64,000 nucleotides of DNA, from contig CAXIPT010000001.1 of assembly GCA_964030475.1 (NCBI GenBank), positions 5,007,152-5,071,151 on the forward strand. The letters are read 5' to 3'. The stretch comes from Tethya wilhelma (Eukaryota > Porifera > Demospongiae > Tethyida > Tethyidae). How positions within the stretch are numbered: the stretch's first letter is position 1; every line of letters starts with the position of its first letter. A program made the position numbers and the translations under genes. Of this stretch, positions 1,205 through 41,627 are shown piece after piece. The notes beneath the pieces are model-generated. The model saw only the letters and a program-made list of their open reading frames with translations. It was not told where the DNA came from and did no database searches.

Positions 1205-4200
1205 CTTTCCTTCTCACCCAACACGCCTGCCTCCAGTCATGCCAAGGTCATCACCCTACTCTCTACGGTCATCCTATGCTGTGCTGGCCTCATCATGGTG
1301 AGTGCCATTGTTGGCTGGCAGTATGGCTTCAACCACTTCACATTCCTCTACTCTGAAGTCTTTATCCTGTTTGCAAAGACTCTCCACACCATCATCAGGT
1401 GAGTTAGCATCATAATTGATGTTTACTAATTTTTCTGGTTGTTTTTTTTTAGTTTCCTGCTATTTGCACAGCTAGATTTTTTATTTTTCTCTATGAATCC
1501 CAGATATATCATTCACTTGTGGTACATGCATCATGATGGTGTTTGGGAGAATCAGAGTAGCTATGCCTATTATGTTGAGCTCGTTCTGGAGTTGCTGGCC
1601 TTGTGTGTGGATTTTGTGCACCACGTTCACATGCTGCTCTGGGCTAACATGTTCCTGAGTGTTGCTAGCCTCATCCTACTGATGAAGCTGAGATTCTTGT
1701 ACCAGGTATTTTAATAGTCCTATGAGTACTTGATTGCTTTGCTCATGTTTATTGTACAGCATTCTTCTATAATAGCTTCCCATTTTGAATGTAAAGGGTA
1801 TTATGTAATAGGTAATAAGACTGAAATGTATATTTTTGGGATTCTTAGTTCAGGGTCACTTTTATATTAGCATTTTAGTTCAGGGTCACCTTTATATTAG
1901 AATTGTAGTTGGCTTTTCCCTTTTGCTATGTGGCATTTTGAACTTGTGCTATTTCAAAAAGAACAACAGTAGACATGTGACAAGACCATGAAACTGTGTG
2001 CCTGGTTGCCTTTCTTCCTCAGGAGATACAGAGACGGTTGAAGAGGCACCGCAAGTACATCACAGTGAGCCACACGTTGGAGAAGAGGTATCCACTGCTC
2101 TCCAGACAAGACCTGATGATGCTCGACGAAACCTGTGCAATCTGCTGGGAGAAGATGAACTCCGCCCGTCAACTTCCCTGTGGCCACCTCTTCCACATGT
2201 AGGGGACATTTCGTATAGCTAGAGAGTAGATTTTTTTGCAGAAAAGAAATAGCCAAATATTTTGCTGTTTTAAGTGCAAATTCAAATCTCTAGGTATACT
2301 GTATAGCTGGAAATATTGACGGAGATTTTAATTTGACGGTTTGACGGGCAAAGTTCAAATTGTCAAATTAAGTCCATCAATATTTTGGCCACTGTATATG
2401 CATGTACTATGTGCACGCGCACATTGTCAATGGTCAATATTTATATTTTACGTTCTGCGGAGCAAACCGTCAAATTTTTTGACTGTAAATATTTCTGGCT
2501 ATACAGTATGGAGAGTCCAAATGGTAGCTTATTAATAATAATTACAAGTGAAGTGAATATGTTGGTGTAAGAAATAACAAATTTTGATTCTCAACATCTC
2601 TTGACAGATTCTTTCCTTTATTATTATTATTGCAGGGGTTGTCTCACATCGTGGTTGGAACAGGACACGGTGTGTCCCACATGTCGTCACTCACTCAGTG
2701 AGGACCTGCGTCCGTCCAATGACGGGGGTGAGGTGGACCATGAGGGCGTGGTCAGAGGAGAGCAGAGGCTCCACAGAAGAGGGAGGAATGATAGGAGAAA
2801 CTGGCTGCTTCATTTCAACGGTGCTTCCATAGCTAGTTGGCTGCCGACGTTCTCACTTCAACTCCATCAAGAGGATGAGAATTGGATCGGCAATGCTGAA
2901 CATCTCCACAGAGAGGTATACCTGCAATAATTGCGACCGTACTCATGAGATATTGCCCCTATTCTGATTGTTACTGTATATCCTGACTTGCTGCAATGAA
3001 TCTGTTTGCTTGTATTTATTATCCTAGGCCGAACCAATGTTTCCAGAGAGATCAGTCCAAGGGATCACCCTGGACCTAGCTGATGCTCACTCCATCTCTC
3101 TCACCGTTGATCAGCCGGCCAATGCCAACAGGTACCTCCCTGGAGAGGAGGCGGGCAGAGCGGAGCAGACACCCTCTCAAGGGACACCTACCACTCCACC
3201 TGGTGGTGGGCCCGGACAGAATGACGCTCCAGGTTCACAACAAAGTTCACGGGAATCATCGCCGCTAGTACTCACACCCCTCACACCTTCACAAGCCACA
3301 CCCTTCACACCTTCATCCCTCACGAGTGACGATATTACAAGATTGCAAGAATCGCTCCAATCTAGTGATCATCACCATGACAACACAATCTCCACTAATA
3401 CAAGCAGCAACGAACCGACCATCAGTCAGACTGAGAGCAGTGACAATGGTGATGGTGCTACTGCTCTTAGGAGAAGAAAAAGAAGAAATTCAAACTCTGA
3501 AACAAAGGCCTCTGGAAGTGAGCCAGACGAGAGTGAGGGCAGTCCCGAACATAGAGGGTCGATACCACTAGCCCCTTCCATTCAGGGTGGAGAGAGAGAA
3601 GGAGGGGTGGATGTGCGTGATAAGCCAATGATGGTGTCCGGAGGAATTCTGTCATTTGTATCTCTTCAGCAGAGGAAAGAGCAGCTATTAGTCAATGCAA
3701 GAAGGTAGGGTGTGTATGAGTTGTGTGTGTGTGTGTGTGTGTGTGTATTTGATTGAGGTTGGTAATCATGTGTGTCAAATTTAATTGGAAAGTTAAGGGT
3801 GTGTATCTAGCATTAAGAGCTAGGCCTTCCATGCTAGACTTATTGCTGTACATAGGAATACCGTATTGTGTAAATTTGAACAAGCTTATTATGTCCAGTG
3901 AGCAGCAGAAATCTAAAGTCCATTTGGTTTGAGAATTCCTTCCGGTAGGAAAATTGTTTAACTTTTTCAACCAATTTCAAAATTTCAAATACCATTGGAA
4001 TGCCCACTTTCTCCTGGTTCTTTTGGTTGCTTTTGACACCTTAATTATCAGTCGACTAGTCATGTATTTCTTATAAGAAAAATATTGACCATATCATTAT
4101 GATAGTATTGACTATAATATAGCATGTATCCTGAATCTCATGGTCAATCACGCGTTTCATTTACAGCGGAATTCTCAAACCAGATTGACTTTAGTTCGAT

Positions 4201-23977: not shown

Positions 23978-25290
23978 TCACCACCATTTCTCATAATGCA
24001 CACACTGTGGTTCAACACTACACTGAGTTAAGAGTATCTTGAGCATGTCTTCAGTCATTGGAGGGGGGCCACACACATAGCACTCTAGTCTTGAGTGGTC
24101 CAACTGTGCCAGAGCATTGGCAACATCTTCAGGGCCTATTCTGTGATCCCTGCAGTCTGAAATATTAGTGCCAACTGATGATTTTTCAGTCAAAGGCTCA
24201 TGATAGGAATGGAACAATGCCCAAGGTCTCACTTGAAGTGGTCTGATTGTCTTTGTGTCTGGTGAGAAAGTAGTGTACACTGATATCACTGTGGCTGCTG
24301 CATATCCTGTCAATGTTGTCCTATAATACACAATATTATTGTCAGAAGTGTTAGATGAGAGTAGTGTGTACCAGTACGATATCATACCTTGAATATGAGT
24401 TCTTCTAGTGTCTTTGCTGAGAAGAGAAGCTGCACTCTACCATCGCTGTGTTGCCTGATAGTAGAGTCACCAGGCTGACTGTGGTGAAGGTGAAGGAGGT
24501 TGGCATGGTGTTGCAACATTGAGAAGAGGGGATTTATTCCCACGCCCCCAGCAATTAGCAAGAGGTTCCTAGGAGTGGATGGAGCATACATGAAATCTCC
24601 TCCTACTTCCATGCTCAAGACATCACCCACTTGGCACTGTAATACCATAGAATTTAATATCAGTACATCAAAATCAGACTAGAGTTATAAGTTTACCTTG
24701 GTGGTCATCCACAGTGCAGGAGGGTGGTCGCTGCGTTGAATGGCTAGGTCAATAGTGCCACTGTCCTGGAGTTGCTGAGGAGGTGATGTAATGGAGTAGC
24801 CACCTACAGTCTCTACACCAGGTATGTATAAATCTATCCTACATAAAAACGCAAATGGAGAAATAAAACACAACAGTGAACAGAGCTGTGTATAATAACA
24901 CGTAATATACCCATAGATATTACATAGTATATTATATCTATGATATACCATTGTCCAGAATGGAATTTTACACTGGAATTAGCCACTTGCAGTCTGTAGC
25001 CCTTCACTCTTGGAGAGAGCTCTTCGATCTTTGTTACTGTCACTTGTGAAGTAATCTACAGCACAATCAATGTGAATATGATACAAGAAACAATTATATA
25101 AGCTTGCCTTATTTCTTGAGCTTCCTTCTGTACGCTCCATGTGTGTCTTACCACTGCTACTGCTCATTCTACAGTACAATAATCCAGGTATTCTGCCCAG
25201 ACTGAAAGTGAGTGGCAATCTCATGCTTGAATGGGTAATGGTCGTCGTGCAAGATGCCACCCACGTGTGACGATCTTTACCTTCCAGCAT
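23978..25290 (-). CDS. OXNAD1: Oxidoreductase NAD-binding domain-containing protein 1
   Basis: A multi-exon gene on the minus strand. The first exon (25290-25108) encodes a Ser/Thr/Arg-rich start. The second Met (25224, [19 protein letters not shown]) resembles a mitochondrial presequence and may be the real start. The FAD-binding barrel follows ([27 protein letters not shown]), then the NAD-binding region [19 protein letters not shown]. The C-terminal NAD-binding part is [17 protein letters not shown] and the protein ends VHYEKWW. This is the ferredoxin-reductase-like fold with RxYS- and CGPP-type motifs. Human OXNAD1 is mitochondrial and its substrate is not well defined. The exon 1 donor appears to be GC (AAG|GCAAGC). 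Exon boundaries between 24300 and 24390 are approximate. Confidence 0.87.
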
Positions 25291-28200
25291 GGCATCTTCT
25301 CAAATGGAGGGCTCTGCTAATTGCCCAATCTGTGGCAAAGCAGTTCCACTAGAGAGCATCAACAATCACATAGATATCTGTCTCCTTCCAGGAGGGAAGG
25401 AACTGCATGCTGAAATGAAGCTAGATGAATCTGGTGCCACTCCTACTAGGCTCACTGCCACAAGTAGGTCTAGTGGGACTGTTGGGAGTGCGAGTGGGAG
25501 CATAAGACAAACACCAGCATTATCTAGGAAAAGACAGTCACCTAGAGAAACTGGAAAGCAGTCATTACTTGTTCCTTTTGACAAGAGTGAGACTCCACAC
25601 CGTAACCTTGAAAGCCAACCACCTGCAAAGAGTAGAAAGCTGACCTTGAGCTCAACTCCTACCAGCTCAAAACAACAGTCTATTCCCACACTAGACACTG
25701 CAGCTGCTAGTAGCAGTGAAGACAGCAGCAGAAAAAATGTGGGTGCAAGTGTTACTACAGACTTAAAGGCTCCACTAGCTGAGGTTGTGAGACCTACAGT
25801 CATTGCTGATTATGTTGGACAGGAAAGCATCATTGGAAAGAATGCTATTCTCCGGACCGTGCTAGAGTCAGGTCAAGTACCATCGATGGTATTCTGGGGA
25901 CCACCTGGATGCGGAAAGGTATAGTGTATTGACCCATTCCATGATTAGTTCACAAATATACTGGTATCGTCTTCATTTCAGCCTGCCATAATTTTGTTTG
26001 TATAGACAACTCTAGCCAGAATTATTTCCAAGGTGGCACATGAGAAGTTGGGTACAAGGTTTGTTCAACTATCAGCCACAACAGCTGGAGTGAAAGATGT
26101 CAAAGATGTTGTTCAAAAGGCCAAGAATGAGTGGGCTCTACTCAAGAGAAGAACCATCCTCTTCATTGACGAGATTCACAGATTCAACAAACTACAGCAG
26201 GTATATCAGTGTATTAAATGCAGAATAAATTAAAAAACAACAATAAAATGTTTGTGTGCTTTATATAGCAGGTAGCTGAATCATTTTGGTACCAATTTTT
26301 AGAATCTACTGTAGGATAGCACAATGCATTTGTGTGTGGTTTGTGTTTCCATGCTAACGTCACTAGTGTAGCTGTAAGTTACATTATTGTTGAGCTCCTG
26401 GATCTATTGCGAGTAGTCGTTTGATTAGAACTCCTTGTGGAGATGTTGGAGGACAGAGTTTGGTTATTCTACCCTTTAGATTCTCAATTTCAAACCGTGT
26501 GGCAAGAGCAATTCTGTAAGTGTGTTTAAGACCCAACTGAATCACCTTGTCTTGTCGGATGAATTTAGACAGCTTACTTATGAATTCACATGGATCAATT
26601 TCTATGGTTTGTTCATTATCATTCCCCAGCGCTATGAGGAGGATTAGAATAGAAATCCAAGGAACAAGAACCAGATCCAGATCTGAATTAGAAGGTGTTG
26701 CTTCAATATCAACATCAGCTAGAACTGTTTGAAGTACTTTGTGATCAATTATTGTCGCAATTGAGTGATAAAATTCGCCAATTAATTTCTTATGTTTCAT
26801 AAGTAGTGCCTTTAGGTAGCTCTGATGTGGTTTGAGATCAATTTGAGAAGTAGCTGCTAGGAATACACAGCTAAGAAGCCAAGTAAGCATAGCATAAGAA
26901 GTATTAGCACCACAATAAGACAGAGCAGAAATCCTTTCCCTAGCTTGTTTCATCTCACCCATCATTCTCTCAGAGTCCACTAGTCCCATACAAATGTTTT
27001 CAATGCATTCACAAGCTCTGTCTGATTGAAACTCTTGTCTAAAGAATGGCTCATATTTACTAGATGAACTACTAGTAGGATCTGCGCTCATTATTGCATC
27101 TTTGAATAATATTTGATGTGCCATCAGCTTCACAATGTATGTCTGAAGAACAGAAGGCTCAGGCCAATCAGTGTTTGAAATGTAGATAAGATAGTTTGTT
27201 GTATACTCCTCTGTGAATGTAAGAGCATTAAACATGGCTTCAAAAAAGTATTGAGTGAAATGAGTAACATTTGTAGTTTCTTTGAGTTGAGAAGTGTGTA
27301 CTGTGAAAGAATTTGTGTACGATGTTGAAGCTATGTTCATACACGCTTCCCATTCTTGGCTGTTGTTGACTAACTTAGACAGGGCATCTCTGAAACCAAT
27401 CATCTTCCTCTCTTTTGTAAGAAATATTGTTTCAAGAGTGTTCCAAGGAGCTTGAAAACTTGTTGGAACAAATGAAATAGCACTTCCTTGAAATGGTAAC
27501 ATGTTGTCAAGATCGATTCGACCAATTTGTTTCAGTTGTTCTGAGAGGTAGCTGTAGTTCCCTGGCCCAAGTAGGCCCATTCTCTCAAGCTTCACAAACA
27601 GCTGATAACCTTTTGTAATCCCCTCTGAGAACTCAACTGATGGGCAAACAAAGAGTAGCCTTTGAACATCATCTGTTGACATTCTATCTGACAGAGCCAG
27701 CAACAAGACACGATGACTCTCCATTTTTTTTGTTCGAACACTTGTAGGCCTGGCAGCCTAACTGTAGACAGTCACAACACTTCTCTGAAAATAAGCATAA
27801 AATTAATAAAAATGATGTGTACTGAATACCCTCAAGGTGCATTGGCATTTCCTGTGTGATGACTTGAAGTTGTATATTATGCAGGAAATTGATCATTCCA
27901 TATAAAGCACTGCTGTTCTGATCAGTTAGGTGGGCGGAGGGAGTGGAGGGATGTGGTGAGGATTTTCCTTCTTGCCTACCACATTAAGCAACAGATGACC
28001 TATACATTTAACAATAACCATTATATTCTTTTCACAAAAGGCTGATTATGACTCAAATCTGTCTATCAGCATAATTATAATATTATAGTGACTCAGTCGC
28101 ATACTCTGACTGCAATCTCATGCATTATGGCTATGTTTAGCCTCATAAACCAGGCTTTCCCTATGTGCTGTATATAGCAATAAGCATAGCGGGAAGGCCT

Positions 28201-31200
28201 GGTTTACCAGGCTAAGCTATATTAGGGTACTTAAACCTTTTTAAAGTCCTTATTGCATGCATGCATGGGATGATGAAATCCTATATGACTTATATGGGAC
28301 GGGAGTATACGAGGCTAGGCTATAATATTATTAAGGAACTGAAACAGTTTTAGAGTCCTTATGTTATGGTGGGTTCACTGGCATACACTGCATAATTGTT
28401 TTGCATAATAATTGGTTGTTAAATGTTCTAAGAATTGAATGTGTTTGATATATTGCATTCCTGCGTTTTTGCATGCAAATAGTTTTTACAAAGGAAGTTA
28501 TGTGAACTAGCCTTTATATGTATAGAACAACATACTGATTCTGTATATTTACTATCACATGCATAATATTATGAGTAAAGCTCTATATAGTTTTGAAACT
28601 CCTACTATTTGAGCTCCTCAGGAATCCATTGCGAGTAGCCTCTTGATTAGAACTCCTTGTGGAGATGATGGAGGACAGAGTTTGGTCATTCGCACCTTCA
28701 GATTCTCAATTTCAAACCGTGTTGCAAGAGCTATTTTGTAAGCATGTTTGAGACCCAGCTGAATCATCTTGTCTTGTTGAATGAATTTGGACAGGTGTGT
28801 TATGAATTCATATGGATCAATTACTATCCTTTGTTCATTTTCATTCCCCAATGCTATGAGGAGGATAAGAATAGAAATCCAAGGAACAAGAACCACATCT
28901 AGATCTGAATTAGAGGGTGTTGCTTCAATGTCTACATCAGCTAGAACTGTTTGAAGTATCCTGTGATCAATTATTGTAGCAAATGAGTGATAATATTCAC
29001 CGATTAATTTCTTATGTTTCATAAGTAGTGCCTTCAGGCAGCTGCGATGTGGCTTGAGATCAATCTGATTAGTGGCTGCAAGAAATATACAACTAAGAAG
29101 CCAAGTAAGCATAGCATATGAAGTATCAGCACCACAATAAGATAGAACAGAAATCCTTTCCCTAGCTGGTTTCATTTCTCCCATCATTCTCTCAGAGTCC
29201 ACTAGTCCCATACAAATGTTTTCAATACATTCACAAGCTCTGTCTGATTGAATCTCCGGTCGAAAGAATGGTGTGTAGTTATTGGATGAACTACTAGTAG
29301 GATCTGCACCCATTATTGCATCTTTGAATGATTTCTGATGTGCCATCAGCTTCACAACATATGTCTGAAGAACAGAAGGCTCAGGCCAATCAGTGTTAGC
29401 AATGTAGACAAGATAGTTTGTTGTATACTCCTCTGTGAATCTAAGAGCATTAAACATGGCATCTAAGAAGTGTTGACTGAAATGAGTAGCATTTGTGGTT
29501 TCTTCGAGTTGAGAAATTTGTACTGTGAAAGAATTTCTGTATGCTGTTGAAGTAGCATTCATACATGCTTCCCATTCTTGGCTATTGTTGACTAACTTAG
29601 ACAGGGCATCTCTGAAACTGATCATTTTCTTCTCTTTTGTAATAAATATCATTTCAAGAGTGTTCCAAGGAGCTTGTAGACTTGTTGGAACAAATGAAAT
29701 AGCACTTCCTTGAAATGGCAACATGTTGTCAAGATCGATTCGACCAATTTGTTTCAGTTGTTCTGAGAGGTAGCTGTAGTTCCCTGGCCCAAGTAGGCCC
29801 ATTCTCTCAAGCTTCACAAAGAGCTGATAACCTTTTGTAATCCCCTCTGAGAACTCAACTGATGGGCAAACGAAGAGTAGCCTTTGAACATCATCTGTTG
29901 ACATTCTATCTGACAGAGCCAGCAACAAGACACGATGACTCTCCATTTTTTCTTTTTTACGCTTGAAGAAATCTGGCTCTATACTATAGTCTATAGTATG
30001 AATATGAATATGAATATGAGTACCTTAATGACGTACAGAACACCCTAAATACACATACAGAATACCCACAACAATACACTGTGGTATTTCCCATATTAGA
30101 AAGCTGCATGCATGCATAGGATGATGAAATCCTACATGACCTATACTGGTGTGTATAGATCTTAGAGATAAGTTATGGGCTTGAGGGGGGGGAAGGGGGG
30201 TGGAGGCAATGTGAAAGTATTTTCCCCTTCCCCTATCTTGATAAAGTTTGCAAAACTAGCATTTAGAAACAACAATCATTCTTTTCGTTTAGGAAATCTA
30301 TATGCATAATACAATTTCACTTTGTACATTATAGTTAGCACCATGCATGTTAGCTTTTCACATAGATGATGCTCTGTCAAGTAGCTATTTTGATAGTGTC
30401 ACTATAGTTATGAAGATCCTTTCATTAATCCAATGCTAGTAGTCTTTTGATTAGAATTCCTTGTGGAGATGTTGGAGGACAGAGTTTAATGATTCGGCCC
30501 TTCAGATTCTCGATCTCAAATCGTGTTGCAAGAGACGTTTTGTGAGCAAACTGTAGGCCCAACTGAATCATCTTGTCTTGTTGAATGAATTTTGACATCT
30601 GAGCTAAAATTTTGCAGCAATCATTTTTTTCTATCTCTTTGTTCTCATTTCCCAATGCTACTAAAAGGATTAGAATGGAAAGCCAAGGAACAAGTATTAA
30701 TTGATAATGATGAGGATCACTTGAATTGGACAAGTGTGTTGTATCAATGTCCACATCAGCCAATGCCAACTGAAGTATTCTGTGATCAAGTATTGTAGCT
30801 ATTGAGTGATAAAATTCTTCGATTAGTTCCTTGTGTTTCATGACTAGTGCCTTTAGGCAGCTGCGATATGGCTTGAGATCGATCTGAGATGTGGCTGCAA
30901 GGAATACACAGCTAAGGAGCCAAGAAAGCATAGGGAATACAGTACTAGTACCTACACAGCAGTAAGACAAAGCAGATATCCTTTCCCTTGCTTGATTCAT
31001 CTCTGTTTTTGTTTTTTTTAAGTCAACTAATCCCATACAAATTGTTTCCATACATTCACACGCTCTGTCTGATAGAATGTTTGGTTTGACTGTAGGTTGT
31101 TTATAGTCATGTTCGGATGGTGGTGAAATTTGCTTGAATCTTGGGTCCATTGGTTCAGCATCTCTAAATGATTCCCAGGATGCCATCATCTTCATAACAT

Positions 31201-34200
31201 ATGTCTGAAGAACAGAAGGCTCAGGCCAATCAATGCTAGCAATGTAGACAAGGTAGTTTGTTGTATACTCCTCTGTGAATGCTAGAGCATTCCACATAGC
31301 ACCTGGAAAGTGTTGTAAGCGAGTAGCAGTCATAGTTTCACATTGATTTTGTACAGTGAAATAACCAGTGTAAACTTTTGAAGCAACATTCATACATGCT
31401 TCCCATTCTTGGCTGTTATTCACTAGCCTAGACAAGGCATCTCTGAAACCAATCATCTTCCTCTCTTTTGTAAGAAATATTGTTTCAAGAGTGTTCCAAG
31501 GAGCTTGTAGACTTGTTGGAACAAATGAAATAGCACTTCCTTGAAATGGTAACATGTTGTCAAGATCGATTCGACCAATTTGTTTCAGTTGTTCTGAGAG
31601 GTAGCTGTAGTTCCCTGGCCCAAGTAGGCCCATTCTCTCAAGCTTCACAAAGAGCTGATAACCTTTTGTAATCCCCTCTGAGAACTCAACTGATGGGCAA
31701 ACAAAGAGAAGCCTTTGAACATCATCTGTTGACATTCTATCTGACAGAGCCAGCATTAAGACACGATGATTCTCCATATTGATTTCAGTAAATTTAATCT
31801 GTATGTTATAGCAAAATATTATTACCGCATGCAGCTTATATATAATTCTTCTGGCTGTGCTCGCATGCTTGAACCTGAGTGCACACAAGATGTTTTATCC
31901 TGTGTGGCGAACTCTCGATCTGTAGCTTTTCCTGTGTGGTATTGTGTATATAATAGGTTTCTAACTTTGACGCATATAAATTGGTGTGCATGACCAATGA
32001 CTGCATACATAAATTTATAAGCAAACCACATGTAACACCTCAACTTCCTAAATGCCTTCCTCATGTAGCTGATTGTCTAGCTGAAGACACTTAATAGTAT
32101 CCTGAAAATGACCAAATTAGGTTGTGCATGTCCATAGTACAGTCTAGATCAATTCTATTTATAGTTGTTAAACTTTCTTATGTTATGTATGTCTGCTGTA
32201 TAAACTTGTCATTGGTGACAGTTTGATAGCTACAAGGCTTCATTTATTAGCTACGATTGAATGAACATTTTCTGTTAATAGCCTCTAGGTAAGCACATGC
32301 TTTACAAGTTTGACTAGTTTATTGGGTAAAATTGCCCCTATTCAACAAAACTTTGATAAAGATGTAGTACCTTAAATAAGTGGTGGATTTTAGTACTATA
32401 GCATTCAATTTGGTAGTAATTGAAATTTCCACACAAGATGATTGAATAGACATCTCTGAGTCATGTCAAGATATCTAGCACTGCCATGCTGGCAAACTGC
32501 GATATTCGCAAAAATTTTCCCCCACGAAAGTTTTCCACTATACGGTACAATGACACCTTTTCTCATAAGTTTTACATAATAACAACACAAATATCTTGTC
32601 ACATAGACACCAGTATAGCTATTTGAAAGTGTCATTATTTGAAATCCTTTCATGAATCCAATGCGAGAAGTCTTTTGACTAGAATTCCTTGTGGAGATGT
32701 TGGAGGACAGAGTTTAATGATTCGTCCCTTCAGATTCTCAATCTCAAACCGCGTTGCGAGAGACGTTTTGTAAGCAAGCGCAAGACCCAACTGAATCACT
32801 TTGTCTCGTTGAATGAATTTTGAAACCTGGACTAAGATTTTACAGCAATCAATTTTTTTTCCTGTCTCTCTGTTCTCATTTCCCAATGCTACTAAAAGGA
32901 TTAGAATGGAGAGCCAAGGAACAAGTATTACTTGATAACGATGAGGATCACTTGAATCAGACAAGTGTGTTGTATCAATGTCCACATCAGCCAATGCCAA
33001 CTGAAGTATTCTATGATCAAGTATTGTAGCTATTGAGTGATAAAATTCTTTGATTAGTTCCTTGTATTTCATGACTAGTGCCTTTAGGCAGCTGCGATAT
33101 GGCTTGAGATCGATCTGAGATGTGGCTGCAAGGAATACACAGCTAAGGAGCCAAGAAAGCATAGCATATGAAGTGTCGGCGCCTACACAGCAGTAAGACA
33201 AAGCAGAAATTCTCTCCTTTGCTTGGTTCATCTCTGTCATCATTCGTTTGAAGTCAACTAATCCCATGCAAATGTTTTCCATACATTCACATACTCTGTC
33301 TGATAGAATATGTGGTTTGACTATAGGTTGCTCATAGTCATTTTCGGATGGTGGTGAAATTTCCTTGAATATTTGGTCCAATGGATCAGCATCTCTAAAT
33401 GATTCCCAGGATGCCATCATCTTCATAACATATGTCTGAAGAACAGAAGGCTCAGGCCATTCATTGTTAGCAATGTAGACAATATAGTTTGTTGTATATT
33501 CCTCCGTGAAATTAAGTGCATGCCACATAGCATCTGGAAAGTGTTGTAAGTGAGTAGCAGTCATAGTTTCATATTGATTTTGTGTAGTAAAATAACTAGT
33601 GTAAACTTTTGAAGCAATATTCATGCTGGCCTGCCCGTCTTGAGTGTTGTTGACCAACTTAGAGAAGGCATCTCTAAATCCAATCATTTTCTTCTCTTTT
33701 GTAAGAAATATCATTTCAAGAGTGTTCCAAGGAGCTTGTAGACGTTTTGGGACAAATGAAATGGTACTTCCTTGAAATGGCAACATGTTGTCAAGATCGA
33801 TTCGACCAATTTGTTTCAGTTGTTCTGAGAGGTAGCTGTAGTTCCCTGGCCCAAGTAGGCCCATTCTCTCAAGCTTCACAAAGAGCTGATAACCTTTTGT
33901 AATCCCCTCTGAGAATTCAACTGATGGGCAAACAAAGAGTAGCCTTTGAACATCATCTGTTGACATTCTATCCGACAGAGCCAACATTAACACACGATGA
34001 CTCTCCATAATGATTTATCAATGTGATTTTCTGATTCTATAGTAAATTATAGCAGCAATATCGGCTCTTATACGGAATGCTGTAGTAAGCACAACGGCTC
34101 GAGATCTTGTGTACAGTATATATATGATACATATTATACATAAGTCTGAGGCAAGGTGTAAACCACTAATTATTTTGAGTTTCCTGTGTTGTGACTCTGT

Positions 34201-37200
34201 TCTACCTGTATTAAAGTATTGAATGGGTTTCTATAAGGGACACAACAATATGACTGTGTGACCTTTAGCCTGTACATATGTTGCATGATGTGCAAGCATA
34301 GTTTGGCTATTATGGCCTGGCATGCCTGTTGCTAGTCTAGTAGGGCAGACACTGTTAGCACCCACAGAAATGACCAAATTAGGCTGTTATATCTACGTCT
34401 ATAGAGTTTGTCAACTGTCCATGATAATGCATATGTCATCATTAAGTTTGGTTTTTGGTATATTATCTATTTCTGTGTAATTACTCATTTCTTGTGAATT
34501 ATTATTGCACCATATCATACTTTCTGATTAGCCTCTATAGGTAAGCACATGCTAAGATTTTGACTAATTCATTGGGTGAAATTGCTTCTACATGCATTCA
34601 GAAAANAATCTATTGTGAGAAGTCTTTTGATTAGAATTCCTTGTGGAGATGTTGGAGGACAGAGTTTAATGATTCGGCCCTTCAGATTCTCGATCTCAAA
34701 TCGTGTTGCAAGAGACATTTTGTGAACAACCCGTAGGCCCAACTGAATCACCTTGTCTTTTTGAATGAATTTTGACATCTGGGCTAAGATTTTACAGCAA
34801 TCATTTTTTCCTATCTCTTTGTTCTCATTTCCCAATGCTACTAAAAGGATTATAATGGAAAGCCAAGGAACAAGTATTACTTGATAATGATGAGGATCAC
34901 TTGAATCGGACAAGTGTGTTGTATCAATGTCCACATCAGCCAATGCCAACTGAAGTATTCTGTGATCGAGTATTGTAGCAATTGAGTGATAAAATTCTTC
35001 GATTAGTTCCTTGTGTTTCATGACTAGTGCCTTTAGGCAGCTGCGATATGGCTTGAGATCAATCTGAGATGTGGCTGCAAGGAATACACAGCTAAGGAGC
35101 CAAGAAAGCATAGGGAATAGAATACAAGTAGCTACACACCAGTAAGACAAAGCAGATATCCTTTCCCTCGCTTGATTCATCTCTGTTTTTGTTCGTTTTA
35201 AGTCAACTAATCCCATACAAATTGTTTCCATACATTCACATGCTCTATCTGATAGAACATTTGGGTTGACTGTAGGTTGCTCAGAGGCATTCTCGGATGC
35301 AGTACATGGTGATCTTGGGTCCATTGGTTCAGCATCTCTAAATGATTCCCAGGATGCCATCATCTTCACAACATATGTCTGAAGAACAGAAGGCTCAGGC
35401 CAATCAGTGCTAGCAATGTAGACAAGGTAGTTTGTTATAAACTCCTCTGTGAATGTAAGAGCATTCCACATAGCACCTGAAAAGTGTTGTAAGCGAGTAG
35501 CAGTCATAGTTTCGTATTGATTTTGTACAGTGAAATAACCAGTGTAAACTTTTGAAGTAACATTCATTAATGCTTCCCATTCTTGGCTGTTATTCACTAG
35601 CCTAGACAAGGCGTCTTTGAAACCAATCATCTTCCTCTCTTTTGTAATAAATATCATTTCAAGAGTGTTCCAAGGAGCTTGTAGACTTGTTGGAACAAAT
35701 GAAATAACACTTCCTTGAAATGGTAACATGTTGTCAAGATCAATTCGACCAATTTGTTTCAGTTGTTCTGAGAGGTAGCTGTAGTTCCCTGGCCCAAGTA
35801 GGCCCATTCTCTCAAGCTTCACAAAGAGCTGATAACCTTTTGTAATCCCCTCTGAGAACTCAACTGATGGGCAAACAAAGAGTAGCCTTTGAACATCATC
35901 TGTTGACATTCTATCTGACAAAGTCAGCATTAAGACACGATGACTCTCCATGGTGATTTTAATCGGTATAATTATGCTCTTGAGTATACTGAAGCAGCTT
36001 ATTTATAGTTCTTCTGGCTGCTGCATGCATGCTTGAACTAGAGTGCACACAGGATGTTTTATCCATGTATAGCTCTTCCTGTAGGGTATTGTGTATAACA
36101 AGTCTGGTTTTGATGCACATAACATCAATGTGCATGACCATTGACCAAATTGATGTAGTACATAAATTTATTAACAAACCACATGCAACACCCTAACGTC
36201 CTTATATAGGCAATTCAGTGCCTAACTGAAAACATTAATTTAGTAGTAGTAGCATCCAGAAAATTACCAAATTAGGTTGTGCATGGTGATCATAATATAA
36301 TATTGCTATACATCTATTAATAGTTTGTCAAAGATTTGTGATGATTTTGTTTGTAGTAGCTATAAGGCTGTCACTTATCAATCTATCCTGTGATGACTCA
36401 TTTCTTGTGAATTGCTATTGCATCATATTTTGAATGCTTTCTGTTCAGCCTTCAAGTGAACACATGCTGAATGAGTTTAACTAGCTCATTGGGTAAAATT
36501 GCCACTCTTCAATAGAACTTTGATAAAGATGAAGCACTTCAGTTGGTGGATTTTAGTACTGGCATCAGTAGTAGCGGAAAGTTCTATAGAAGATCAAGCA
36601 GTGACATCTCAAAGTGGGAGTACCCAGCACTGCCATCCATGGACAATTGTTACCAACAATGGCTCTTGCACTTGTCCAGTGGAATCTAATCGAAATGTAG
36701 TGGTCAAATGCTATAACAATGGTGATTTTGTAACTCTTCCCTACTGTTATTGCATGTCGTACAATGAGCAGTTCAACTTAACTGTTGTTGGCTACTGTGT
36801 GTTCAGGTGCCACCTCTACATACACGATCCTCTTCGCAAACGTACTGTGATGAATCATGAACCATATCGCTATGAGGTCATTGGCAATACTTCCAACCTG
36901 TCAGAATTGAATCACTACTTATGCAGTGACCTTCAGTTGAACAGGACAGGTCAGATGTGTGGCAGCTGCATCAGTGGTCATGCTCCTCCTGTCTACTCCT
37001 ACAGCCTGGCTTGTGTGAACTGCACTGCGAACTATGAATACAATTGGCTAAAGTACATCGCTGTTGCATACTTGCCACTCACAGCATTTTACTTGGTTGT
37101 CATTCTTTTTAGGATGTCCGCAATGTCTGGGAGAGTAGGTGGTTATGTTTTAACCATTCAGATTACTTCTGCACCTGCTGTTATTAGACTGCTATCGGTA

Positions 37201-39888
37201 GTTTCTGTTTCAAAATATGCTAATAAAAACCATGTCGGCTCACTTGCACAAAAGTTACTGATTGCAATCTGGAGTATATTGAATCTTGATTTTTTTCGAG
37301 GCCTGTACTCTCCCTTTTGCATCCATCCCAATTTTTCTACTCTTGAAGTCCAAGTACTGGACTATGTCATTGCCCTGTATCCTCTGTTATTGATACTTAT
37401 CACATATGTGTGTGTCAAGTGTCATGATCATTTTAGTGTTTGTGTTAGGCTGTGGAAACCATTTTACAAGTGTTTCATCAAGCTTCGTAGAGAGTGGGAA
37501 ATACATACATCTCTTGTAGAAGTATTTGTTACCTTCATCTTGCTTTCTTACGTAAAGATATTGAACACGTCATTGAATCTGCTTACACCCCTTGTCCTTT
37601 TCAGCAACAAGCAGAAAATAATGCCTCAGTATTATCTTAAAATAGATGGATCCATAGAATACTTTGGACAGGATCACTTACCTTACGCCTTGCTTGCTAT
37701 TGTGATGATATTTGTGTTTAACATTGTACCAATGATGTTGTTGTTTTTGTATCCTTGCAAAACATTTCACAAATGTCTGAATTTTCTCAAAATACACAGA
37801 CAAAGGCTTCACATGTTTGTTGAAGTTGCTCAAGGCTGTTTTAAAACTCACCCACGAGACTATCGATGCTTTTCAGCTGTTTACTTACTAATTCGAATCA
37901 TCAACCTTGTTCTCCTAACAATGCTAAATGGTTTTATGTACTTGCCATTTGGTGGGATGCTAATGTTTTGTTCAGCACTTATTGTCGGGATTGTGAAGCC
38001 ACACAAATCAGATCTCCATAGTGTTGTTGACTCAGTGTTGTTTGCCAGTATTGGCTTTGCATACATCACTGGTTATTTATTGAGATATTCTCAAGTTCTG
38101 TTTAAAATCTACTATCAAAGAATCATCTTTCTTGTCATCATCAATTTAGGAGTTGCCATCATTGTTCTGTATGGATTTGGCCTTGTTATTTGTGCAATAA
38201 CACCACTACGATTGGTATACTATGTACGAATGAAAATGTACAATTGTTTCAAAGGGAGAAACCAAATGGAAAATGAGAATCCACAACCATTCCAGTTTAA
38301 AATCAGCAGTGAGTACAAGCCACTTCCTTTATCAGTAGATATGTGAACCCTCTAACTCAGAATTGAACAAGACATTGTGTGCATAGACTCAGAAAACTTT
38401 TTATAGTTTTTGTATATAGCATGCTTTTTGGCTGTTAGTTGTTTTTCTGTATTGGAACTTGATATTATATTATTGGTATACATGCAGTTCTGAATTTAAA
38501 GGGTGTTTGACTATGACAAAATAACTATTATTGTATGATTTTTTTGGTTTTTTCTTGCATGTATATTATAGGATACATTCTTGCCTCATGTTGAAGATGG
38601 GACAATCACACTACTGGGAGCCACAACTGAAAACCCTTCCTTTCAACTCAATTCTGCACTCCTCAGTCGATGCAAGGTTATCATTTTGGAGAAGCTTGAG
38701 GCAGTGGAGATTGCAGGGTTGCTAAGGAGAGCTTTGAAAAAATTAGGAGCTGCTGAGATTGCTGAAAACTCAACAAGGAAACCTAATAAGCTTGAGAGGT
38801 ATACAAAAGGAATACACTCTAACTTAGTACTGTAACACGTTACAGTTTGATAGTGAATTGCCAATGCAGGTCTTCTGACATTGTGTGGGTTGAACCTGAT
38901 GCTATATGGGCACTGTCTCAGTTTTGTGATGGGGATGCAAGAAGTGCATTGAATTCACTGCAGCTTGCTGTTCAAGCCAGGAGAACACAACACCAGAGTA
39001 GTAATGAGCAGAAGACTTCACTTGATGCTGCTTCGTTTGCTACAGGCATGTACATATACACTATAATGCATGCATGTGATTGATCATTAGAGTTTACACT
39101 ATAAGATTTAGATAGCATAAGGGAAAACTATAAGCTTGCAGTTTATGATTGATATTTAACTGTTTACTGTTTACTGTTTACCCAGTGACAGTTCAAGATG
39201 CTAAGGACAGCTTACAGAGAAGTCATCTTATCTATGATCGAGCTGGAGACGAGCACTACAATTGCATATCAGCATTGCACAAGTCTATGAGAGGCAGTGA
39301 TCCTAATGCTTCTCTTTACTGGCTTGCAAGAATGCTCAGTGCTGGTGAGGATCCACTCTACGTGGCCAGAAGAGTGGTCCGATTTGCCAGTGAAGATATC
39401 GGTAAGTTTGACGGACAATTTTAGAACCATTGAGCATGTACAAATTCTTTTCTTTATAGGATTATCTGATCCAAATGCTCTCCCTCAGGCCATTGCTGCC
39501 TTCCAGGGATGCCAGTTTATTGGAATGCCAGAATGTGAAGTAAGCATTATGTACAATGTCATATAGATCTGTATTATCATTGTGATGAAAGGTTGTGGTA
39601 TATGTGATGAATATGCCACTACAGGTTATTCTTGCACAAGCAGTAGTGTACATGGCACGTGCACCAAAATCGATTGAAGTATACACAGCATATGACTCAG
39701 CTAAACGGTGTATTAAGGAACATAAGGGCCCACTACCATCAGTTCCACTTCATCTTCGGAATGCTCCGACTAAACTGATGAAGCAACTTGGCTATGGAAA
39801 AGACTACAAGTACAACCCTGCCTTTGCAGAGCCGGTAGATCAGCAGTACATGCCTGAAGGGCTAGAAAAAGTAGATTTTTTCTCGTAA
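25289..39888 (+). CDS. WRNIP1: WRN helicase-interacting AAA+ ATPase, split by a 12.4 kb intron that hosts other genes
   Basis: Seven exons (25289-25918, 26006-26200, 38572-38798, 38870-39045, 39186-39401, 39460-39539, 39625-39888) join in frame to 595 aa. The N-terminus has a UBZ4 finger ([20 protein letters not shown]). A Ser-rich linker leads to the AAA+ core: Walker [13 protein letters not shown] spans the exon 1/2 junction, Walker B is [12 protein letters not shown], sensor 1 GATTENPSF, and the arginine-finger region LLSRC. The C-terminal tetramerisation part has [39 protein letters not shown] and ends KVDFFS. It matches human WRNIP1 (yeast Mgs1, bacterial RarA), which acts at stalled replication forks. 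Intron 2 (26201-38571) is far larger than any other here and holds six genes. Intron 4 has a GC donor (39046). The start ATG overlaps the OXNAD1 ATG on the other strand. Confidence 0.95.
26384..27724 (-). CDS. DED-domain protein, tandem copy 1 (nested in WRNIP1 intron)
   Basis: Intronless 446 aa frame starting at ATG 27724. Residues ~2-76 look like a death effector domain: six-helix spacing, hydrophobic [10 protein letters not shown] and LLFVC helices, [11 protein letters not shown], and the diagnostic RxDL motif as GRIDLDNML. Residues ~77-446 are mostly helical, with hydrophobic segments [17 protein letters not shown] and [13 protein letters not shown] and a conserved tail [13 protein letters not shown]...[17 protein letters not shown] do not recognise that region. 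DEDs mediate homotypic assembly in caspase-8/FADD-type apoptosis and immune signalling. It is closest to copy 2 (sub-type A). Confidence 0.8.
   Translation of the reverse strand: MESHRVLLLALSDRMSTDDVQRLLFVCPSVEFSEGITKGYQLFVKLERMGLLGPGNYSYLSEQLKQIGRIDLDNMLPFQGSAISFVPTSFQAPWNTLETIFLTKERKMIGFRDALSKLVNNSQEWEACMNIASTSYTNSFTVHTSQLKETTNVTHFTQYFFEAMFNALTFTEEYTTNYLIYISNTDWPEPSVLQTYIVKLMAHQILFKDAIMSADPTSSSSSKYEPFFRQEFQSDRACECIENICMGLVDSERMMGEMKQARERISALSYCGANTSYAMLTWLLSCVFLAATSQIDLKPHQSYLKALLMKHKKLIGEFYHSIATIIDHKVLQTVLADVDIEATPSNSDLDLVLVPWISILILLIALGNDNEQTIEIDPCEFISKLSKFIRQDKVIQLGLKHTYRIALATRFEIENLKGRITKLCPPTSPQGVLIKRLLAIDPGAQQ
27725..28617. other. Intergenic spacer between DED copies 1 and 2
   Basis: About 0.9 kb, AT-rich, with the copy 1 upstream region and copy 2 3' flank. 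No gene seen. GGCCTGGTTTACCAGGC near 28196 is a short palindrome. No remnant of the membrane-protein gene is visible here. Confidence 0.4.
28618..29946 (-). CDS. DED-domain protein, tandem copy 2
   Basis: Intronless, 442 aa, start ATG at 29946, [16 protein letters not shown]. Same layout as copy 1: N-terminal DED with GRIDLDNML, then the unknown helical region, ending [20 protein letters not shown]. It pairs with copy 1 (sub-type A): both have ADPTSSSS in the middle linker and ERMMGEMK in the [10 protein letters not shown] segment. The first ~125 codons are almost identical in DNA to all other copies, while the middle third has many substitutions. No frameshifts or stops, so it is probably functional. 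Confidence 0.8.
   Translation of the reverse strand: MESHRVLLLALSDRMSTDDVQRLLFVCPSVEFSEGITKGYQLFVKLERMGLLGPGNYSYLSEQLKQIGRIDLDNMLPFQGSAISFVPTSLQAPWNTLEMIFITKEKKMISFRDALSKLVNNSQEWEACMNATSTAYRNSFTVQISQLEETTNATHFSQHFLDAMFNALRFTEEYTTNYLVYIANTDWPEPSVLQTYVVKLMAHQKSFKDAIMGADPTSSSSNNYTPFFRPEIQSDRACECIENICMGLVDSERMMGEMKPARERISVLSYCGADTSYAMLTWLLSCIFLAATNQIDLKPHRSCLKALLMKHKKLIGEYYHSFATIIDHRILQTVLADVDIEATPSNSDLDVVLVPWISILILLIALGNENEQRIVIDPYEFITHLSKFIQQDKMIQLGLKHAYKIALATRFEIENLKVRMTKLCPPSSPQGVLIKRLLAMDS
29947..30424. other. Spacer between DED copies 2 and 3
   Basis: About 480 bp. It contains short ATGAAT repeats near 29997-30020 and a G-rich stretch at 30184-30203. No gene seen. Confidence 0.4.
30425..31777 (-). 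CDS. DED-domain protein, tandem copy 3
   Basis: Intronless. I choose the ATG at 31777 ([16 protein letters not shown]) because it aligns with the other copies; the frame is open further upstream but lacks an ATG. It is 450 aa, with the DED ending GRIDLDNML and tail [19 protein letters not shown]. It belongs to sub-type B with copies 4 and 5: shared NQ(C/Y)[22 protein letters not shown] and an insertion carrying SSDPHHYQ before the hydrophobic [14 protein letters not shown] segment. Its upstream region is homologous to those of copies 4 and 5 and is followed by a decayed 5' end of the membrane-protein gene. Confidence 0.8.
   Translation of the reverse strand: MENHRVLMLALSDRMSTDDVQRLLFVCPSVEFSEGITKGYQLFVKLERMGLLGPGNYSYLSEQLKQIGRIDLDNMLPFQGSAISFVPTSLQAPWNTLETIFLTKERKMIGFRDALSRLVNNSQEWEACMNVASKVYTGYFTVQNQCETMTATRLQHFPGAMWNALAFTEEYTTNYLVYIASIDWPEPSVLQTYVMKMMASWESFRDAEPMDPRFKQISPPSEHDYKQPTVKPNILSDRACECMETICMGLVDLKKTKTEMNQARERISALSYCCVGTSTVFPMLSWLLSCVFLAATSQIDLKPYRSCLKALVMKHKELIEEFYHSIATILDHRILQLALADVDIDTTHLSNSSDPHHYQLILVPWLSILILLVALGNENKEIEKNDCCKILAQMSKFIQQDKMIQLGLQFAHKTSLATRFEIENLKGRIIKLCPPTSPQGILIKRLLALD
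31778..32279. promoter_or_regulatory. Duplicated bidirectional intergenic region upstream of DED copy 3
   Basis: About 500 bp aligning by eye with 35952-36450 (upstream of copy 5) and in part with 34009-34530 (upstream of copy 4). Shared words include GAGTGCACACA, GATGTTTTATCC, TGACCAAATTAGGTTGTGCA and GTAAGCACATGC. In copy 5 this region sits between the DED gene and the intact membrane-protein gene, so it is probably a shared divergent promoter. Confidence 0.6.
32280..32495 (+). pseudogene. Relic of the 5' end of the membrane-protein gene (upstream of DED copy 3)
   Basis: Aligns with 36450-36650, the leader and first codons of the intact gene: shared ATTGGGTAAAATTGCC, AACTTTGATAAAGATG and GGTGGATTTTAGTACT, then later ACATCTC and CACTGCCAT (the codons around QHCHPW). 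The ATG is followed at once by a TAG stop and there are small indels, so it cannot make the signal peptide. Everything past this point is lost. It marks a former full copy of the divergent partner gene. Confidence 0.65.
32650..34008 (-). CDS. DED-domain protein, tandem copy 4
   Basis: Intronless, 452 aa, ATG at 34008. DED with GRIDLDNML, then the unknown helical region with [19 protein letters not shown] and [14 protein letters not shown], ending [12 protein letters not shown]. Sub-type B. It has more substitutions than the other copies after the DED ([23 protein letters not shown]). No stops or frameshifts. The upstream region 34009-34530 is homologous to that of copy 5, followed by a truncated relic of the membrane-protein leader. 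Confidence 0.8.
   Translation of the reverse strand: MESHRVLMLALSDRMSTDDVQRLLFVCPSVEFSEGITKGYQLFVKLERMGLLGPGNYSYLSEQLKQIGRIDLDNMLPFQGSTISFVPKRLQAPWNTLEMIFLTKEKKMIGFRDAFSKLVNNTQDGQASMNIASKVYTSYFTTQNQYETMTATHLQHFPDAMWHALNFTEEYTTNYIVYIANNEWPEPSVLQTYVMKMMASWESFRDADPLDQIFKEISPPSENDYEQPIVKPHILSDRVCECMENICMGLVDFKRMMTEMNQAKERISALSYCCVGADTSYAMLSWLLSCVFLAATSQIDLKPYRSCLKALVMKYKELIKEFYHSIATILDHRILQLALADVDIDTTHLSDSSDPHRYQVILVPWLSILILLVALGNENRETGKKIDCCKILVQVSKFIQRDKVIQLGLALAYKTSLATRFEIENLKGRIIKLCPPTSPQGILVKRLLALDS
34530..34605 (+). pseudogene. Truncated relic of the membrane-protein leader (upstream of DED copy 4)
   Basis: GCCTCTATAGGTAAGCACAT and TTCATTGGGTGAAATTGC align with 36450-36505 and with 32280-32340. 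The similarity ends at the n at 34606, beside the 3' end of DED copy 5, so the partner gene is deleted or hidden in the gap. Confidence 0.5.
34607..35951 (-). CDS. DED-domain protein, tandem copy 5 (3' end at a gap)
   Basis: Intronless, ATG at 35951 ([16 protein letters not shown]), ~448 aa to the gap. DED with GRIDLDNML, sub-type B middle, and tail ending KRLLTID right at the n (34606). The other copies stop one or two codons later, so essentially the whole protein is present but the stop codon is not resolved. The linker after [13 protein letters not shown] is shorter than in copies 3 and 4. It is head-to-head with the intact membrane-protein gene, about 577 bp between start codons. Confidence 0.78.
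35952..36528. promoter_or_regulatory. Bidirectional intergenic region between DED copy 5 and the membrane-protein gene
   Basis: 577 bp between divergent ATGs. Segments conserved with the regions upstream of copies 3 and 4 include GTGCACACAGGATGTTTTAT and CTCATTTCTTGTGAATTG. It is the only place in the cluster where both partners are intact. Confidence 0.6.
36529..38346 (+). CDS. Cys-rich multi-pass membrane protein of unknown function
   Basis: Intronless, 605 aa from the ATG at 36529. The first residues, [18 protein letters not shown], form a signal peptide. The ectodomain (~residues 20-165) is Cys-rich, with CHPW, CTC, CYCMSY and C-G-S-C-I-S-G-H...C-V-N-C clusters and several N-glycosylation sites (NGS, NLT, NTS, NLS, NRT). 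About nine or ten hydrophobic segments follow (for example [58 protein letters not shown]), then a ~40 aa cytoplasmic tail. I do not recognise the family; the layout resembles a receptor, channel or transporter with a ligand-binding ectodomain. It is nested in WRNIP1 intron 2 on the same strand as WRNIP1 and divergent from DED copy 5. Confidence 0.75.
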   Translation: MKHFSWWILVLASVVAESSIEDQAVTSQSGSTQHCHPWTIVTNNGSCTCPVESNRNVVVKCYNNGDFVTLPYCYCMSYNEQFNLTVVGYCVFRCHLYIHDPLRKRTVMNHEPYRYEVIGNTSNLSELNHYLCSDLQLNRTGQMCGSCISGHAPPVYSYSLACVNCTANYEYNWLKYIAVAYLPLTAFYLVVILFRMSAMSGRVGGYVLTIQITSAPAVIRLLSVVSVSKYANKNHVGSLAQKLLIAIWSILNLDFFRGLYSPFCIHPNFSTLEVQVLDYVIALYPLLLILITYVCVKCHDHFSVCVRLWKPFYKCFIKLRREWEIHTSLVEVFVTFILLSYVKILNTSLNLLTPLVLFSNKQKIMPQYYLKIDGSIEYFGQDHLPYALLAIVMIFVFNIVPMMLLFLYPCKTFHKCLNFLKIHRQRLHMFVEVAQGCFKTHPRDYRCFSAVYLLIRIINLVLLTMLNGFMYLPFGGMLMFCSALIVGIVKPHKSDLHSVVDSVLFASIGFAYITGYLLRYSQVLFKIYYQRIIFLVIINLGVAIIVLYGFGLVICAITPLRLVYYVRMKMYNCFKGRNQMENENPQPFQFKISSEYKPLPLSVDM

Positions 39889-40091: not shown

Positions 40092-41627
40092 ATGGCAGAC
40101 ATTAGCTTTTTTCTTCTGAGTATTCTACTTCTAGTCAGTGGTGCAATAACTTCACCTAGTGCTGTTGCCCCAGACAAGCCTCACATTTTGTTTTTGCTAG
40201 TGGATGACTGGGGATGGGCCAATGTTGGCTACCATCGTGACCCACCAACTAAAGAAGTACAAACACCAAATTTTGACAGTCTTGTGAAAGTTGGCCTTGA
40301 ATTGGACCAGAACTATGTGTACCATTACTGTTCTCCATCACGCTCTGCCTTCCTGACTGGTCGTCTCCCTATTCATGTCAACGATAGGAACAATGTTGCT
40401 ACCTACAATAAGAATGATCCTATTGGAGGATATGCAGGTATCCCTCCTAAGATGACAAGCATTGCTGAGAAGCTGAAAGGGGCTGGTTATGAGGCACACA
40501 TGGTGGGGAAATGGCATGTGGGTGATGTGACACCAGACCAAATACCAATTGGACGGGGATTCTCAACGTCTTTTGGCTACCTTCGTGGAGCTAATGATTA
40601 CTATACTGAATGGGATGGTTTGTGCAACCAAACACACGTGGTTGATCTGTGGGACACTGACAAGCCTGCATGGGGGGTGAACGGCACGGGAGAAGACAAC
40701 TACGAAGAAGCTTTGTTTAAAGAGCGAGTACTTAAAGTTGTAAAGAATCACGATAAATCCAAACCTCTTTTTCTCTACTATGCTCCTCACATTGTCCATG
40801 CTCCTCTTGAAGTACCTCAACGCTATCTGGATGAGTTAAAGTTCATTGATGACGAGGATCGACAGTATTACCATGCCATGACAAAATACCTCGATGACTT
40901 TGTTGGAGAGCTTGTTAGCACACTCAAAGACGGTGGACTGTGGGACAATCTCTTGATGGTTGTCAGCAGTGATAATGGTGGTCCACTTCCTCACGGTGCA
41001 AACAACTACCCACTAAGAGGAGGTAAAGTCACGGACTGGCAGGGAGGTATCCGGGTGATTGGTTTCGTTACGGGAGGATATCTCCCTGAAAAGATGCGAG
41101 GGCAAAAGACCGAAGGCTACATTCACATTGCAGACTGGTACGCTACATTCTGTCACCTGGCTGGAGTTGATCCGACCGATGAAAAAGCAGCTAAAGCCAA
41201 ACTTCCTCCAATCAACAGTTTGAACATGTGGCCAATGATATCAGGTGAGAACTCCACATCGCCACGTGTGGACATACCTGCTACCTTCTCAACTTTGATC
41301 AGTGGTGATTACAAGATTCTGCAGGGAGATGTTGCTCAAGCAGGATGGACAGGACCACAGTACCCTAATTTGACCAATCCACATGGAGGTATCAAAGCTG
41401 TCGCTCACTGTGGGGATGGTGGCTGTTTGTTCAATATCAAGAAAGACCCTGAAGAGCGTGTGAATCTAGCCTCAACTATGCCTGACATTCTAAAGCAAAT
41501 GCAACACAAGTTGGCCAAATATCAAGCAACTTATTTCAATCCTGATCGTGGTACAGAGCCGCCGATAGCTTGCCAGATGGTGAAAGAGAAATACAAAGGA
41601 TTTTGGGGACCATTTATTGGGGTGTAG
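40092..41627 (+). CDS. Arylsulfatase (sulfatase family S1), intronless
   Basis: A single 511 aa frame. It starts with a signal peptide (SFFLLSILLLVSGAI). LFLLVDDWGWANVGYH supplies the metal-binding Asp pair. YCSPSRSAFLTGRLPIH holds the C-x-P-S-R site whose Cys becomes formylglycine, followed by the conserved TGR. VGKWHVG and VSSDNGG carry further active-site Lys/His and Asp/Asn residues. It is closest by pattern to the arylsulfatase B/I/J branch, which hydrolyses sulfate esters of glycosaminoglycans in lysosomes or outside the cell. The lack of introns, when most neighbours have many, suggests retroposition or transfer from bacteria followed by signal-peptide retention. It lies 200 bp after WRNIP1 in the same direction. 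Confidence 0.92.
   Translation: MADISFFLLSILLLVSGAITSPSAVAPDKPHILFLLVDDWGWANVGYHRDPPTKEVQTPNFDSLVKVGLELDQNYVYHYCSPSRSAFLTGRLPIHVNDRNNVATYNKNDPIGGYAGIPPKMTSIAEKLKGAGYEAHMVGKWHVGDVTPDQIPIGRGFSTSFGYLRGANDYYTEWDGLCNQTHVVDLWDTDKPAWGVNGTGEDNYEEALFKERVLKVVKNHDKSKPLFLYYAPHIVHAPLEVPQRYLDELKFIDDEDRQYYHAMTKYLDDFVGELVSTLKDGGLWDNLLMVVSSDNGGPLPHGANNYPLRGGKVTDWQGGIRVIGFVTGGYLPEKMRGQKTEGYIHIADWYATFCHLAGVDPTDEKAAKAKLPPINSLNMWPMISGENSTSPRVDIPATFSTLISGDYKILQGDVAQAGWTGPQYPNLTNPHGGIKAVAHCGDGGCLFNIKKDPEERVNLASTMPDILKQMQHKLAKYQATYFNPDRGTEPPIACQMVKEKYKGFWGPFIGV

Follow-up and report, generated by a model that had tools for sequence, protein, structure and literature searches.

In the genome of the sponge Tethya wilhelma, the gene of a death effector domain (DED) protein and that of a Cys-rich membrane protein (MP) lie head-to-head beside further copies of the DED gene. 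This layout raises the question of whether the two products form a two-part sensing system that is kept together, as the preliminary description of the locus proposed, or whether their neighbourhood is largely a relic of gene duplication. The answer given below is drawn from a window (bases 5007152-5071151 of contig C1, the whole stretch of 64,000 nucleotides that was analysed, to which positions refer unless a contig is named) and from searches of the genome (124.6 Mb, 204 contigs).

Results and Discussion

Organization of the locus

The window harbours five open, intronless ORFs on the minus strand (D1-D5), each encoding an N-terminal DED followed by a long tail, and one ORF encoding MP (Table 1). 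All six were found where the preliminary description had placed them, with D5 and MP head-to-head and 577 bp between their ATG codons. Together they span positions 26384-38346 within a single intron of a host gene, the frame of which, under splicing predicted from the sequence, stays open from the end of exon 2 (26200) into the start of exon 3 (38572). The make-up of the host gene (AAA, AAA_assoc_2 and MgsA_C) is presumably that of a WRNIP1/RarA-like gene of DNA-repair type, while Pfam yielded no family above cut-off for exon 1 (25289-25918) and no match for the stretch 38572-38800. The host gene occupies window positions 25289-39888, and the intron preceding its 12.4-kb intron measures 87 bp. 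Directly downstream of it lies an intronless sulfatase gene (40092-41624; PF00884, 159 bits).

Table 1. Window positions of the nested genes, their intergenic regions and the host gene.
Feature	Position	Strand	Evidence and remarks
Host-gene exons 1 and 2	25289-25918, 26006-26200	+	Exon 2: Pfam AAA, 25.9 bits (cut-off 21.2)
Host-gene intron, 12,371 bp	26201..38571	+	GT...AG; encloses D1-D5 and MP
D1, DED gene	26384..27724	-	ORF; DED above cut-off, 49.2 bits in genome scan
D2, DED gene	28618..29946	-	ORF; Pfam DED 45.9 bits
D3, DED gene	30425..31777 (from ATG)	-	Pfam DED 44.8 bits; listed ORF starts at upstream TTG 31888
Copy of intergenic region upstream of D3	31778..32361	.	Alignments; TATATA 67 bp before D3 ATG
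Decayed MP start, D3 side	32362..32515	+	ATG at 32362, TAG directly after
D4, DED gene	32650..34008	-	ORF; Pfam DED 45.2 bits
Partial copy of intergenic region with MP leader, D4 side	34207..34592	.	Alignments; zero MP codons aligned
D5, DED gene	34569..35951	-	ORF; Pfam DED 45.4 bits
Divergent intergenic region D5/MP, 577 bp	35952..36528	.	D5 ATG 35951, MP ATG 36529; TATAAA 56 bp before D5 ATG
MP, multi-pass membrane protein, 605 aa	36529..38346	+	ORF; hydropathy; predicted structure
Later host-gene exons	38572..39888	+	AAA_assoc_2 and MgsA_C in 39185-39403; MgsA_C in 39625-39888

Single-exon genes within introns are numerous in some sponge annotations, with 2432 in Aphrocallistes and 3358 in Amphimedon; the same table gives 83 and 0 for other annotations, which its authors blame in part on the annotation method (PMC10282587). 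Since such genes are abundant in some sponges, nesting alone is unremarkable here, and what sets the locus apart from these cases is the presence of six genes in one intron.

All five DED proteins passed the curated cut-off of PF01335 (35.9 bits) in the genome scan, through which D1 was assigned; the Pfam scan took D2-D5 and scored them at 44.8-45.9 bits. The nearest solved structures by sequence are those of c-FLIP residues 95-169 (E 0.0011), which we take to be its second DED, and residues R-I-D-L in the DED of the array fit RxDL, a motif of DEDs. A predicted structure of the DED protein, built from a six-sequence alignment, was set aside (mean pLDDT 33.9). The proteins resemble FADD-type adaptors in their single N-terminal DED, but Pfam revealed no Death domain in D2-D5 up to E 1, which argues against their assignment to FADD, and the DED is followed by a tail of about 370 aa to which no Pfam family was matched. 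Likewise, the DED is shared with c-FLIP and caspase-8, whereas the array proteins have a single DED and no caspase-like part over the Pfam threshold; neither peptidase C14 nor a second DED was matched by Pfam in D2-D5, which speaks against a caspase-8 or c-FLIP assignment. NCBIfam matched nothing for D4, MP or one of the tandem-DED proteins of contig C2 described below. Among the best 7,999 candidates of the protein search one relative of the DED protein was found, P0121 (66% over the whole length of P0121), which is taken to come from another organism, as the full-length matches in this genome, five in number, do not include it. No relative was confirmed in viral_contigs or genome_contigs.

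The N-terminal part of MP is rich in cysteine (13 Cys, residues 35-165) and is followed by a predicted multi-pass helical bundle (mean pLDDT of the model 85.8). MP was matched by no Pfam family, and comparing its model with the available lists of folds gave no informative match; that a given fold, the TRP/polycystin type included, is missing there carries no weight as evidence. The name DUF7630 was rejected: this family matched 15 of 60 members of the MP family with E values no higher than 0.1 (best 0.0066), but not MP itself. PDB sequences yielded one chance-level row for the family (E 0.26) and viral_contigs no relative. The one relative in genome_contigs (L049, 35% identity, positions 1498-3078) lies on a contig assigned to the bin of a Pseudomonadales bacterium, from what is presumably a sponge metagenome. 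The eight ORFs of at least 90 aa on this contig were looked over by eye, and the MP-family gene there is likely to be animal DNA that was placed in a bacterial bin. In the protein database, at least 590 relatives of MP were found among the best ~8,000 candidates. MP belongs to a very large family of membrane proteins, and a role as a dedicated receptor is improbable.

The divergent intergenic region and its copies

The preliminary description held that the D5/MP intergenic region recurs upstream of D3 and D4, each time followed by a decayed start of the MP gene, and that the pair was hence the duplicated unit. The regions upstream of D1-D5 (u1-u5) were compared by local alignment against 200 dinucleotide-preserving shuffles, and the homology expected among u3, u4 and u5 was borne out above all shuffles: u3 versus u5/MP scored 276 (shuffle maximum 35), u4 versus u5/MP 99 (33) and u3 versus u4 70 (35). 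In the six pairings of u1 or u2 with u3, u4 or u5, the scores were at chance level, being reached by 26 to 94 of the 200 shuffles, while a short element is common to u1 and u2 alone (score 68, shuffle maximum 35).

Upstream of D3 the region recurs over 531 bp at 67% identity (in blastn, u3 versus u5/MP: 68% over 607 columns, E 4e-51). A decayed MP start is present on this side as well; beyond its ATG-TAG, 115 aligned positions with 77% identity reach 32515 under lenient gap costs, a piece that was aligned without a shuffle control of its own. Upstream of D4 the recurrence holds in part only. The blastn match of u4 with u5 covers 97 columns (E 1e-11; 34476-34566 on the D4 side) and extends to 34207-34592 under lenient gap costs; because it stops before the position of the MP ATG, this remnant corresponds to the MP leader and not, as had been proposed, to a decayed coding start.

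Given the homology of u3, u4 and u5 and the MP codons on the D3 side, the intergenic region and the MP start were duplicated together with the DED gene for three of the five copies. The unit behind D3, D4 and D5 would have comprised the divergent intergenic region and the MP leader, with MP codons in addition for D3, a reading supported by the alignments. D1 and D2 bear no trace of the module. When the whole genome was searched with the 577-bp region, three places came up, each of them within the array; in such a search the lack of a match is no proof of rarity.

The window contains eight lone N bases (11992, 19554, 34606, 44450, 47424, 49792, 53920 and 60662). The one at 34606 sits exactly where D5 meets the remnant on the D4 side, and the frame of D5 crosses it into the remnant, ending at the stop at 34569. 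An N at such a junction could be taken as a sign of haplotypes or misjoined reads mistaken for separate copies. However, the whole-gene dS between copies ranges from 0.07 to 0.61, their flanks differ and the array is embedded in a contig of 27.4 Mb, so that an assembly artefact of this kind is hardly credible.

Association of DED genes with the membrane-protein gene

In a two-part sensor, MP would sense an outside signal, D5 (and formerly each DED protein) would serve as its dedicated cytosolic adaptor, and a shared promoter would balance the expression of both. The head-to-head layout with its 577 bp, the duplication of this region along with the MP start and the TATA-like boxes found ahead of D3 and D5, on the DED side, agree with this proposal. 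So does the 17-base motif TGACCAAATTAGGYTGT, which with one mismatch at most occurs at six places in the genome, three of them in these intergenic regions (reversed-pattern control: two), but which may reflect shared descent alone.

The distribution of MP, however, tells against the proposal. The intact gene stands beside one of the five DED genes, remnants beside two, and nothing beside the other two; the extra MP copies have decayed while all five DED genes stayed open. The genome holds at least 49 DED matches. A search with tblastn, using MP and 120 of its relatives against 48 loci and the window (about 30 kb on both sides of the window included), found MP at its own place only. This coverage took in 36 of the 49 matches: the five of the array, 16 with about 1.5 kb of outer flank and 15 in stretches of 8.5-9.9 kb, the other 13 lying outside it. 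No pair was seen around the 31 further matches inspected, and the 577-bp module was found in the array alone. As far as the DED surroundings covered go, the outcome that the preliminary description had named as refuting its proposal, a lack of such pairs elsewhere in the genome, is thus partly borne out.

Because one MP was kept against five DED genes and no other MP was found within the stretches covered at the 31 DED matches, a two-part system beyond the single surviving D5/MP pair is not supported. The reading is weakened further by the numbers of relatives, at least 590 for MP as opposed to one for the DED protein (among the best ~8,000 candidates each), and we regard it as unlikely. Judged from the sequence, D5 and MP may nevertheless be co-transcribed, and the intact MP beside D5 may be meaningful. 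In tight head-to-head linkage the pair is comparable to paired plant NLR genes, the products of which cooperate (PMC11298796, for example), although the protein families are different and here the partner decays in the copies. Neither the DED-tail family nor the DED/MP pair was found described in the limited library of literature searched with the terms used.

Probable concerted evolution of the DED-coding third

In all ten pairs of DED genes silent change exceeds amino-acid change (whole-gene dN/dS 0.28-0.57). The part of the gene encoding the DED is homogenised. Between D1 and D3, silent differences amount to 4 at 71 sites in codons 1-100 as against about 88 at 163 sites from codon 201 onward (p 1e-13), and they are likewise fewer in the DED third for D1-D5 (p 3.5e-11), D1-D4 (p 4.8e-9) and D1-D2 (p 9e-5). 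The test was made for six of the ten pairs; in the remaining two of these, D3-D5 and D3-D4, the DED third did not stand apart from the tail at silent sites (p 0.60 and 0.33).

The protein sequences point in the same direction, with one protein, P0121, serving for the comparison outside this organism. Over residues 1-80 (the DED) the copies are on average 98% identical to each other but only 85-86% identical to P0121. Over residues 131-230, by comparison, identity among the copies has a minimum of 52% and a mean of 66%, and identity to P0121 is 52-67%. Since the tails are about as old as the split from the lineage of P0121 and the DEDs are younger, gene conversion suggests itself. In addition, the coding dS of D3 and D5 (0.074) is lower than their intergenic distance (0.20, from ungapped columns of a lenient alignment), which fits conversion across the coding part. 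A test based on run lengths gave p < 0.05 in three of the ten pairs (0.048, 0.021 and 0.025) and in none once the number of tests, ten, was corrected for; of the three runs, two fall in the tail.

A possible alternative to conversion is constraint, whether on silent sites or, in this lineage, on the DED. In its pure form, strong selection on the DED, its codon use or its RNA would alone keep this third alike, and two observations agree with that: in most pairs dN/dS reaches its minimum in codons 1-100, and in comparison with P0121, too, no part is better conserved than the DED. Yet constraint of this kind would have to accommodate DEDs far more alike among the copies than to P0121, and low silent change spanning copies the tails of which are near saturation. 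Moreover, no plus-strand ORF is shared: over the last 360 bases of each copy the frames stay open for at most 45 of 120 codons, or 65 in one frame of D4. Pure constraint therefore retains a limited likelihood, and concerted evolution confined to the signalling domain, with gene conversion as its putative cause, is the most likely explanation of the pattern.

Tails and relation to other DED proteins

Besides the DED matches, at least 54 peptidase C14 matches were found in the genome. On contig C3, DED and peptidase C14 matches adjoin in two neighbour pairs, at distances of 1.5 and 0.6 kb, which makes it likely that the genome contains DED-caspase genes. Contig C2 (19731052-19739526, loci L006-L011) carries three tandem intronless ORFs of 608-673 aa. 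Their products resemble those of the array in that a long tail follows the DED part, but differ in having two DEDs each instead of one. The profile scans accordingly place candidate DED partners for the array proteins in this genome. Two further observations concern the distribution of DED matches: eight single matches lie within about 35 kb on contig C7 (5414612-5449027), a possible second DED cluster, and the stretches 4568906-4572886 and 4617396-4621376 of C3, 48.5 kb apart, have identical DED scores, representing either a recent duplication or an assembly repeat.

The C2 tails, of about 390 aa, matched no Pfam family above cut-off (two of the three were scanned) and no PDB sequence. When array tails were aligned with C2 tails, 11 of the 18 pairs beat all 200 shuffles (best z 9.7 and 8.3), while the D4 tail was near chance, its scores being reached by 3 to 11 of the 200 shuffles. 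Profile comparisons gave little sign of any such kinship: the global comparison of the tails gave E 0.083 and a probability of 0.4%, that of the whole proteins found the DED alone, and the array-tail profile placed no C2 ORF above the HMMER inclusion threshold (best E 0.043). Shared descent of the two sets of tails is likely, if not established.

In Amphimedon, FADD and its partners have been used to test the storage and release of assembly energy by DED adaptors of sponges (PMC13012725). The array proteins may be DED adaptors or modulators, the specificity of which would be borne by the tail.

Origin of the array

The history that we consider moderately probable is that of a nested tandem array in which DED and MP genes were duplicated together, MP copies were lost and the DED third was converted, with MP being a neighbour only. 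Within the intron, a DED gene and the adjoining MP gene, joined by the short divergent region, would have been duplicated as one; the surplus copies of MP would then have decayed or been cut short, and the DED copies retained. Gene conversion would subsequently have held the DED-coding third of the five copies near identical as the tails diverged. The products would act as cytosolic DED adaptors or modulators, the common DED allowing them to join assemblies with the tandem-DED and DED-caspase proteins of the genome and the tails, in a role of their own, distinguishing one protein from another. The array would have no functional tie to MP.

A related scheme also assumes a common DED, a "plug" maintained by conversion, with diversifying tails in a family of adaptors or sensors, and takes D5 with MP to be the surviving original of a divergently transcribed receptor-adaptor module; this combination we consider quite doubtful. 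Under the history of co-duplication and MP loss, the locus illustrates how a head-to-head pair that looks suggestive can be for the most part a relic of duplication, the extra partner genes having rotted and the adaptors having been kept.

The array provides a small example, readable in full, of concerted evolution restricted to a signalling domain, with an outside protein available for comparison, in a death-fold family of a probably early-branching animal. Should the tails turn out to be domains that confer specificity, the family would form a counterpart, based on the DED, to the expanded immune receptor families known from sponges.
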